Source: Aminobacter ciceronei
GTDB lineage: Bacteria > Pseudomonadota > Alphaproteobacteria > Rhizobiales > Rhizobiaceae
DNA length: 64,000 bases
Direction of reading: 5' to 3'
NCBI RefSeq assembly: GCF_014138625.1
Contig: NZ_JACJHY010000017.1
Location: 62,001-126,000, forward strand
Shown one piece after another: positions 13,129 to 48,603 of the stretch (positions within the stretch are counted from its first letter, which is position 1; each line of letters begins with the position of its first letter). The notes under the pieces are model-generated. The model was not told the DNA's origin, made no database searches, and saw only the letters and a program-made list of their open reading frames with translations. Made by a program: the position numbers and the translations under genes.

Positions 13129-13145
13129 CAGCGACCAACAAGATA

Positions 13146-13260
13146 CCCGGCGGGCGGTTCCTCCTCCCTCTGCCTGCCGGGCGAAGCGGCCAGCACCTCC
13201 TCCCGCTGGTCACATAAAGGAAAAGGCCGGCACCTCCTCCCGCCGGCCTTTTTCTTTTTT
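13146..13260 (+). ncRNA. Three-hairpin RNA with CCTCCTCCC anti-Shine-Dalgarno loops
   Basis: Three consecutive stem-loops each display the same 9-mer CCTCCTCCC in the loop, at 13160-13168, 13196-13204 and 13233-13241 (period 36-37 bases). Stems: CCCGGC/GCCGGG (13146-13151/13176-13181), GGCCAGC/GCTGGTC (13188-13194/13205-13211), AAGGCCGGC/GCCGGCCTT (13223-13231/13242-13250). The last is also an intrinsic terminator. Alphaproteobacterial small RNAs of the alpha-r14/NfeR1 and CcsR (cuckoo) groups carry this anti-SD loop motif, usually twice. Here it lies 17 bases after the phasin stop, so it may be a 3'-UTR-derived RNA or have its own promoter. Confidence 0.8.
13223..13260 (+). terminator. Intrinsic terminator of phasin gene and small RNA
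   Basis: 9-bp stem AAGGCCGGC/GCCGGCCTT, loop carrying the third CCTCCTCCC, then a run TTTTTCTTTTTTT. This is the third hairpin of the RNA element. Confidence 0.9.
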
Positions 13261-13385: not shown

Positions 13386-13462
13386 GCGGTTGTAGCTCAG
13401 TTGGTTAGAGCGCCGGATTGTGGATCCGGAGGTCGGTGGTTCGAGCCCACCCAACCGTACCA
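13386..13462 (+). tRNA. tRNA-His (GTG)
   Basis: Complete cloverleaf of 77 bases including encoded CCA. Acceptor stem GCGGTTG / CAACCGT, anticodon arm CCGGA-TTGTGGA-TCCGG with anticodon GTG at 13420-13422, T arm GGTGG-TTCGAGC-CCACC, discriminator A73 at 13459. The base before G1 is C, and the discriminator is A not C, so the G-1:C73 pair that marks most tRNA-His molecules is absent. This is a known trait of a subset of Alphaproteobacteria whose HisRS is adapted to it. Confidence 0.95.
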
Positions 13463-46174: not shown

Positions 46175-46525
46175 CTACTTCACCACCTCGCACGACATCA
46201 CCGCCGGTGCATCCTCGCCCTTGGTCAGGTCGTAGAGATCGGCATTGTCGCCCTTGGTCCACCAGACATAGTTCTGGCCGGCATATTTGGCGCCGCTGGC
46301 GCTCAGCACGGTGACGGCCACGACCGTCCGGTCACCGAGCGTGAGCACGGCGAGCGAATTGTCGCCGGCATTGACGTATTCGGCCTTCACCGTCTGGTCG
46401 CCGCATCCATAGTCGACCGCGTTGCGCTCGACCTCTGCATCCCCCGGCAGATCCAGCGTGACGGTCGAAGCCATTGCCGCACTGGTCGCGGCGGCGAGAA
46501 TGATCGCAGTGACGCTCCAGCGCAT
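46175..46525 (-). CDS. MliC-like periplasmic lysozyme inhibitor
   Basis: A 116-residue secreted protein with signal MRWSVTAIILAAATSAAMA. The mature part carries the MliC pattern: VDYGCGDQTVKAEYV, then the SASGAKYAGQNYVWWTKG signature and a closing MSCEVV cysteine. MliC proteins block c-type lysozyme. ATG 46525 is chosen. It converges with edd; a 7-bp hairpin GAGGCTC/GAGCCTC (46146-46171) in the gap may help end transcripts. Confidence 0.8.
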   Translation of the reverse strand: MRWSVTAIILAAATSAAMASTVTLDLPGDAEVERNAVDYGCGDQTVKAEYVNAGDNSLAVLTLGDRTVVAVTVLSASGAKYAGQNYVWWTKGDNADLYDLTKGEDAPAVMSCEVVK

Positions 46526-48148: not shown

Positions 48149-48178
48149 ATCAGTTCTCTGGTCTGGCCGGACCTTCGC

Positions 48179-48400
48179 CCGCATCCGATCATACGAGATG
48201 CTTTTGGGAAACCGGGTCCGGTGATTGTCCAGATGCGGACGAGCCCAAGGCTCGAGGCCGCATCACCACTGAGGGCAGACCGGGAGAGAGATACGCAACA
48301 TCGAATGCCGCATCATACTGTCCAAAAATCGTAACTGATCGTTGGGGTCGATGCTGTTGGCGCGTCGTCCGAGGTCAGCCCTGCAAACGCATCTGCAGGG
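48179..48400 (-). promoter_or_regulatory. Attenuator-like leader of the ABC-F gene
   Basis: Hairpin A, CCCTGCA/TGCAGGG (48379-48400), covers the last codons of the leader ORF. Hairpin B, GATGCGG/CCGCATC with inner GAGCC/GGCTC (48232-48264), lies closer to the gene. The 5' arm element GATGCG(G) is also found at 48388-48393 (loop of A), 48308-48314 and 48179-48185, so one CCGCATC (48232-48238) has four possible partners. No T-run follows either hairpin, so control could be at translation or through Rho. Confidence 0.55.
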
Positions 48401-48446
48401 CGTGGACAGGGCCGCGCTGACGGTGGTGACGAAAAAACGTGTACAC
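48375..48446 (-). CDS. Leader peptide upstream of the ABC-F gene (23 residues)
   Basis: GTG start at 48446, preceded at 5 bases by AAAGGAGG, the best ribosome binding site in the region. It reads VYTFFRHHRQRGP and so on to a TGA at 48375. It contains Arg-Gln-Arg (residues 9-11), a basic-X-basic motif like those at which macrolide-bound ribosomes stall in erm-type leaders. Its last codons are inside hairpin A. A promoter lies just upstream. It is probably a regulatory ORF, not a functional protein. Confidence 0.65.
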   Translation of the reverse strand: MYTFFRHHRQRGPVHALQMRLQG

Positions 48447-48479
48447 GCAGCCCTCCTTTGTTGTTCGAGTTGCGCGCCC

Positions 48480-48508
48480 TAGATAGCCGCGACCTCGTTC
48501 CTTTGCAA
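48480..48508 (-). promoter_or_regulatory. Promoter of the ABC-F leader
   Basis: Minus strand TTGCAA (48503-48508), 17-base spacer, TATCTA (48480-48485). Transcription would start near 48473, giving about 27 bases before the leader ORF and about 325 bases before the ABC-F ATG. Confidence 0.65.
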
Positions 48509-48510
48509 GC

Positions 48511-48603
48511 CTACTGGATCGTCAGCTCGCTGCGCTCCGGCCTATTGGATCGTCAGCTCGCTGCGCTCCGGCCTATTGGATCGTCAGCTCGCTGCGCTCG
48601 CCG
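48511..48603. repeat. Three tandem 31-bp copies of a gene's 3' end
   Basis: The 31-base unit CTAYTGGATCGTCAGCTCGC followed by TGCGCTCCGGC occurs at 48511-48541 and 48542-48572, and a third copy, diverging in its last bases, at 48573-48603. The third is the true stop and last codons of the VWA gene (ending SELTIQ). Because 31 is not a multiple of three, the downstream copies are out of frame with each other. Confidence 0.92.

Follow-up and report, generated by a model that had tools for sequence, protein, structure and literature searches.

An ABC-F ATPase gene of the alphaproteobacterium Aminobacter ciceronei is probably controlled by a ribosome-mediated translational attenuator of ErmC logic, with a leader peptide centered on Gly-Pro. 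The gene and its leader lie in a window of 64,000 nucleotides, which is the whole stretch of DNA that we analyzed (Table 1). The leader is conserved, it bears the marks of selection at both the peptide and the RNA level, and it contains alternative complementary segments; in computed folds, a ribosome placed on the Gly-Pro codons opens the start of the ABC-F gene. Leader-peptide attenuation had been proposed for this gene from the window sequence alone (hereafter the original prediction), and that proposal is well supported; the conservation checks suggested with it were carried out and came out in its favor. The 23-codon ORF, its ribosome site, the Arg-Gln-Arg stretch at codons 9-11, and hairpin A are all read directly in the sequence, and in alignments with relatives, within the order as well as outside it, the ORF, hairpin A, and the distant complementary segments are found again.

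Table 1. Parts of the ABC-F gene and its leader, with positions in the window
Feature	Position	Strand	Remark
ABC-F ATPase gene, 509 aa	46619..48148	-	start taken as ATG 48148
-35-like TTGCAA of the leader promoter	48503..48508	-	TTG kept in 9 same-genus leaders
-10-like TATCTA of the leader promoter (CTATCT at 48486-48481)	48480..48485	-	TAT kept in 9 same-genus leaders
Ribosome site of the leader ORF, AAAGGAGG	48452..48459	-	
Leader ORF, GTG start (48446), 23 codons plus TGA, peptide MYTFFRHHRQRGPVHALQMRLQG	48375..48446	-	
Arg9-Gln10-Arg11 codons	48414..48422	-	conserved, not invariant
Gly12-Pro13 codons	48408..48413	-	almost invariant; center of the putative arrest motif, two codons upstream of hairpin A
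Hairpin A (pairing 1:2), GCCCTGCAGATGCGTTTGCAGGGC	48378..48401	-	spans the last 8 sense codons
Element 2, AGGGCTGACC	48373..48382	-	takes in the 3' arm of hairpin A, the stop codon, and bases beyond it; complement of element 3
Element 3, GGTCTGCCCT	48272..48281	-	partner is element 2 (open) or element 4 (closed)
Element 4, CAGACC	48160..48165	-	12 bases upstream of the ABC-F ATG; closed-state partner of element 3

The longest ABC-F ORF opens at an in-frame ATG at 48184, but relatives begin at ATG 48148 instead. About 230 bases of structured RNA separate the leader ORF and hairpin A from this start, with further folds downstream of hairpin A, and the 326-nt leader folds more stably than each of 100 dinucleotide shuffles (z -3.9). 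The hexamers originally described as a good promoter are in place, and their TTG and TAT keep a constant spacing in nine aligned leaders of the same genus; by E. coli rules the description does not hold, as a scan of the window leader for E. coli-type promoters returned 0 sites. Read as CTTGCA-N17-CTATCT, the promoter resembles the alphaproteobacterial consensus. Immediately before it, at positions 48509-48599, a 31-base unit is repeated in tandem 2.9 times (98% matches). This unit includes the end and the stop codon of the adjoining von Willebrand-type gene, and two same-genus relatives have two copies of it. Just downstream of the ABC-F gene and on the same strand, positions 46175-46525 (minus) encode an MliC-type lysozyme-inhibitor domain protein, while elsewhere in the window the plus strand carries an ar14 alphaproteobacterial sRNA (13141-13257) and a tRNA-His (13386-13462).

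Two candidate folds of the leader were set aside. Four GATGCG elements and one CCGCATC are present in the window leader, as had been reported together with the suggestion that their pairings exclude one another; these alternatives are shared by near relatives of the window but are not conserved beyond them and do not belong to the conserved core. A hairpin of the leader ribosome site with codons 9-13 can fold in the window, but Rhizobium leaders have a different ribosome site. Searching Rfam with the window leader gave no match at the gathering score or at E up to 5, apart from two at chance level, and the leaders of 10 relatives gave no match. Searches of an open-access collection, in which few subscription journals are represented, gave no account of this leader.

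Across the order, the leader accompanies the gene. A protein search located the ABC-F gene in 64 of 397 genomes (in one, G314, the match was confined to the gene's later part), and the leader was recognized in 63 of these 64, by covariance model in 59 and by eye in four. The model, which describes the leader up to element 3, matched 62 of the 397 genomes (E up to 0.01): 59 of them also have the gene, with the match upstream of it, and three combine a weak match with no gene (G093, G106, and G197). Five genes have no model match, of which four are preceded by a divergent leader recognized by eye and one, at 37% identity, has none (G388). Among 80 named Rhizobiales ABC-F loci, 78 carry the leader ORF, the exceptions being one in which the ORF is lost (L066) and one with an interrupted gene (L073). 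The leader also precedes the ABC-F gene in other alphaproteobacterial orders; in a class-level set of 385 genomes, 14 have the gene and 12 of these have the leader (nine by model, three by eye). It was not found at three loci with a related ABC-F gene, two of them in the class-level set (L187 and L198) and the third being L179. Twelve plasmid records carry the gene, and the leader is present in all three that were inspected (Sinorhizobium meliloti M270 pSymA, Gemmobacter fulvus, and Ketogulonicigenium vulgare). Hence a device that had been thought unusual in an alphaproteobacterium is in fact widespread, occurring in many genomes of the order and the class.

In the window's own genome, a search for a second leader copy gave one strong match only, with a weak second one (L101; E 0.06) that has no ABC-F gene nearby. 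Weak model matches distant from any ABC-F gene (L160, L161, L163, L164, and L174; E 0.0005 to 0.009) were taken as chance. Dropped before the counts were duplicate or offset loci (L102 and L121), a locus matched from residue 175 on only (L142), two with an insertion between leader and gene (L139 and L180), the interrupted gene (L073), the 37%-identity gene that has no leader (L179), and a locus that has no ABC-F gene (L174). At L180:700-1850 (genome G163), an ORF recognized by eye as an IS256-like transposase lies on the opposite strand between an intact leader and the ABC-F gene. In two Mesorhizobium loci (L078 and L093), a palindromic repeat, gctagagcatgatcc...gatcatgctc, is inserted between elements 3 and 4 and is apparently tolerated. 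In a Rhizobium sp. (L066, upstream of 3001), the leader ORF is lost while hairpin A and elements 2-4 are kept, providing a natural test of how the RNA behaves when the peptide is gone.

Selection on the peptide was analyzed in 152 leaders, of which 148 fit an automated pattern and 140 are distinct. The pattern itself required the Pro and six hairpin A pairs; in an independent recount anchored on the hairpin alone, Gly-Pro was present in 140 of 143 leaders, the other three being L066, L172 (Gln-Pro), and L156, for which the script chose another hairpin. Four leaders failed the pattern, three of which show Gly-Pro by eye (L049, L089, and L118) and one of which is L066 with its lost ORF. In a further leader upstream of an ABC-F start (L192), Gly-Ser replaces Gly-Pro and the hairpin sequence is changed. 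L066, L172, and L192 weigh against the proposed attenuator, as do the three related genes that lack a leader. The leader ORFs of relatives encode 15-28 residues, mostly 21-24, and in the 140 leaders the peptide motif sits at a fixed distance from the hairpin. Around HRQRGP, the residues are conserved and the codons vary. Gly is present in 139 of the 140 leaders though all four of its codons occur (98, 32, 7, and 2 times), and Pro is likewise spelled by all four of its codons (63, 42, 31, and 4). For Pro, parsimony over 135 tips counted 29 changes of codon and none of amino acid; the corresponding counts were 14 and 1 for Gly, 29 and 10 for the Arg at -1, and 24 and 7 for the Arg at -3, such that synonymous changes exceed amino-acid changes at the motif; the free codon at +2 underwent 64 codon and 48 amino-acid changes.

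Codons 6-11 of the window leader specify two His and three Arg residues, and a shortage of either amino acid could in principle be sensed through this HHRQR run, as in amino-acid attenuation. The His and Arg positions are variable, however (His at -4 is found in 102 of the 140 leaders), and Gly-Pro is not; furthermore, the ABC-F gene is not biosynthetic, and the His and Arg codons precede the position at which the RNA opens. We give this explanation almost no weight.

From codon +3 on, it is the nucleotides that are constrained: the Ala codon at +3 is GCC in 140 of 140 leaders. In all 140, hairpin A forms its first seven pairs, and pairs are changed at positions 5, 7, and 8 (TA to CG at pair 5; AT, GC, or GT at pair 8). 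The stop codon directly follows hairpin A in 133 leaders and lies elsewhere in seven while the hairpin stays, which indicates that the terminal LQG reflects the RNA rather than the peptide. By these sequence comparisons, two layers of selection act on the leader, one on the peptide at the motif and one on the RNA at the last codons.

Elements 2 and 4 are both complementary to element 3, presenting the ErmC-type choice between 1:2 with 3:4 (closed) and 2:3 (open). The sequences serving the equivalent pairing are GGTCTG:CAGACC, CTTCTGGTCTG:CAGACCGGAAG, CCGGTCTGCCC:GGGCAGACCGG, CGATCTG:CAGATCG, and GTCTCAT:ATGAGAC, the last of which stands in place of the first in one divergent clade. Compensatory stem changes of the kind named with the original prediction are seen in the swapped pairs of hairpin A and in the 3:4 partners that change together in this clade. 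For 59 representatives, the native 3:4 pairing averaged -25.5 kcal/mol versus -23.3 kcal/mol with permuted partners, and none of 20,000 permutations was as good; for eight representatives, native 2:3 averaged -19.9 versus -17.8 kcal/mol, with 41 of 20,000 permutations as good. Row by row, the native partner was best in 3 of 8 cases for 2:3 and the single best in only 2 of 59 for 3:4, so that coevolution shows in the average rather than in single leaders. Predicted folds contain a helix of at least four pairs near the ATG in 140 of 140 leaders, and from element 2 in 127 of 140, by a criterion that is loose and has no null.

To relate these pairings to translation, the RNA left free by a ribosome was folded with the ribosome at each codon, and the cost of opening positions -18 to +3 of the ABC-F start was computed. 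The footprint was assumed to reach 15 nt past the base that opens the P-site codon, and a one-codon error in this value would shift the drop by one codon. Across the 140 leaders, the median opening cost was 11.4 kcal/mol for free RNA, about 10-11 kcal/mol with the P site before Gly (10.0 at -2 and 9.8 at -1), 6.8 kcal/mol with Gly or Pro in the P site, 6.5-6.9 kcal/mol through +5, 9.2 kcal/mol at +6, about 12 kcal/mol near termination, and 12.4 kcal/mol at termination itself. In these folds the start thus opens with the P site on Gly or on the next five codons, the drop begins exactly at Gly, and the start recloses at termination. The cost was more than 0.5 kcal/mol below that of free RNA in 125 of 140 leaders with Gly in the P site and in 128 with Pro; the 12-15 leaders in which opening differs little from free RNA count against the model. 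Shuffling the sequence after hairpin A abolished the effect (mean -0.35 versus -4.5 native; 282 shuffles of 47 leaders), and a drop of at least 2 kcal/mol occurred in 17% of cases with shuffled downstream regions versus 79% with native ones. In the window RNA, 3:4 had a probability of 0.83 when no ribosome was present and 0.99 at termination; a P site on Gly lowered it to 0.12, and one on Pro to 0.60. The opening cost fell from 8.0 to only 6.7-7.0 kcal/mol, an effect weaker than in most relatives; this small fall and the value at Pro likewise count against the model. Before element 4 is made, a stall at Pro brought 2:3 above a probability of 0.5 in 112 of 112 leaders, compared with 4 of the 112 when there was no stall; the result is partly built in, since having the usual element 3 sequence was the basis on which these leaders were chosen.

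These folds bear directly on where a ribosome would have to stop. A stall on codons 9-11 had been expected to change the fold, and on this view a macrolide-type arrest at Arg-x-Arg would work the switch, R-x-R being a recognized macrolide leader-peptide motif (stated for Arg-Leu-Arg in passages of PMC8632094). Arg-x-Arg is indeed found in 117 of the 140 leaders, with both Arg positions under constraint, yet RQF, RQC, RTY, LTY, and others substitute for it in the remaining 23, whereas Gly-Pro stays near-invariant. When Gln10 occupies the P site, the assumed footprint does not reach hairpin A, the median cost remains at the -2 value rather than falling to that at Gly, and the ABC-F start is left closed in the folding model. 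We therefore regard it as unlikely that Arg-x-Arg arrest works the switch.

A scan of the window leader, the one leader scanned for intrinsic terminators, returned 0 terminator-like sites. Taken together with the alternative helix that masks the start region, this suggests that control is probably translational. Known ABC-F leaders are mostly terminator-based, as passages of PMC10201436 and PMC12421871 describe them, and transcription attenuation, whether intrinsic or Rho-dependent, would align this leader with them; given the terminator scan and a 3:4 helix that abuts the ABC-F start codon, we consider it quite improbable here.

We infer an arrest, its site, a drug as its inducer, and a resistance function of the product, in the following scheme of translational attenuation. 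The leader ORF would be translated first. A ribosome reaching the stop codon would cover element 2, and after its release hairpin A (1:2) would form; either way, full translation would leave element 3 to pair with element 4, masking the ABC-F start. A ribosome arrested while its P site holds Gly12 or Pro13 would instead cover the 5' arm of hairpin A, so that element 2 could capture element 3 upon its transcription, and element 4 and the ABC-F start would stay open. The most likely trigger of the arrest would be a drug bound in the exit tunnel or the peptidyl-transferase center, sensed by way of the nascent ..R-[QT]-x-G-P-V sequence, with the result that a ribosome-protection ABC-F protein would be produced when needed.

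The protein has no membrane domain and consists of two ABC domains with a two-helix linker between them. Its best match in the PDB is VmlR2 (8buu), both by sequence (profile E 1.2e-74, about 27% identity) and by the fold of an AlphaFold model with a mean pLDDT of 89.3 (Foldseek E 1.3e-37, with EttA, YbiT, YheS, and PoxtA close behind). The best NCBIfam model is the curated ribosomal-protection family NF000355, at 293 bits and below the 380-bit cut-off. In the alignment, the linker is shorter at its tip than that of VmlR2, which has residues absent here; the low score and these absent residues count against the proposed scheme. An extended linker, as in ARE1-5, is not universal among AREs, as OptrA is described as having none in passages of PMC6723617. 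Based on sequence and modeled fold, a resistance role for this ABC-F protein is likely.

The nature of the protein also matters for a different explanation, in which arrest at Gly-Pro is intrinsic or stress-dependent and is relieved by the ABC-F protein itself, forming a homeostatic loop that raises ABC-F levels upon any stalling. The Arg-x-Gly-Pro core in the leader ORF resembles the drug-free arrest core RAGP of SecM and those of the RAPP/RGPP arrest peptides (passages of PMC12992588), and MsrD acts on its own stalled leader complex and thereby lowers its own expression (passages of PMC10314930). However, the core here is not RAGP, RAPP, or RGPP, and no second Pro follows. The leader also differs from those of SecM and the RAPP/RGPP peptides in that no N-terminus linked to secretion or localization was seen and that an ABC-F gene lies downstream. 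Also speaking against the loop, the closest solved relative by sequence and fold is a resistance factor, and the gene is patchily distributed in the order, as resistance genes tend to be. We find such a loop rather unlikely, and continue to favor drug-provoked arrest at Gly-Pro.

The proposed attenuator parallels the leader of ErmC (ermCL), in which a stalled ribosome masks arm 1, so that 2:3 forms in place of 1:2 and 3:4 and the start downstream becomes accessible (passages of PMC10219788); it differs in that it precedes an ABC-F gene rather than a methylase gene, has a different peptide with a Gly-Pro core, and is alphaproteobacterial. It would also work like the known attenuators of Gram-positive ABC-F genes (cplR, vmlR, vmlR2, lsaA, are5sc, tiaA, and msrD), where stalling on a short ORF turns the ABC-F gene on. 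As given in passages of PMC10201436, PMC12421871, and PMC10314930, those ORFs are very short (MR[I/M], MIN, MK[L/Q], MAGN, MLV, and MVGDDDISG, with six residues in MsrDL) and terminators are usual, whereas the alphaproteobacterial ORFs are longer and carry a motif in their interior, with constant spacing to a hairpin, and the scan of the window leader gave no terminator. The differences thus lie in peptide, length, terminator, and lineage.

A bolder reading, which we put forward tentatively as possible but not probable, is that R-[QT]-x-G-P-[VI] defines a new class of regulatory nascent peptide. Arrest at Gly-Pro would then sense a ligand or a translational stress met by soil alphaproteobacteria, possibly tunnel-binding peptides made by their neighbors, and the encoded ABC-F protein would relieve the arrest, creating a self-adjusting ribosome-rescue loop across several alphaproteobacterial orders. 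The 140 leaders offer a ready panel of natural variants with which to find out what drugs or stresses stall ribosomes at Gly-Pro, and the leader itself is a practical marker for finding these ABC-F genes, whose uncharacterized alphaproteobacterial product is a candidate resistance factor. If the proposed mechanism is true, inducible control of ABC-F genes by a stalled leader ribosome would extend to Gram-negative soil bacteria.
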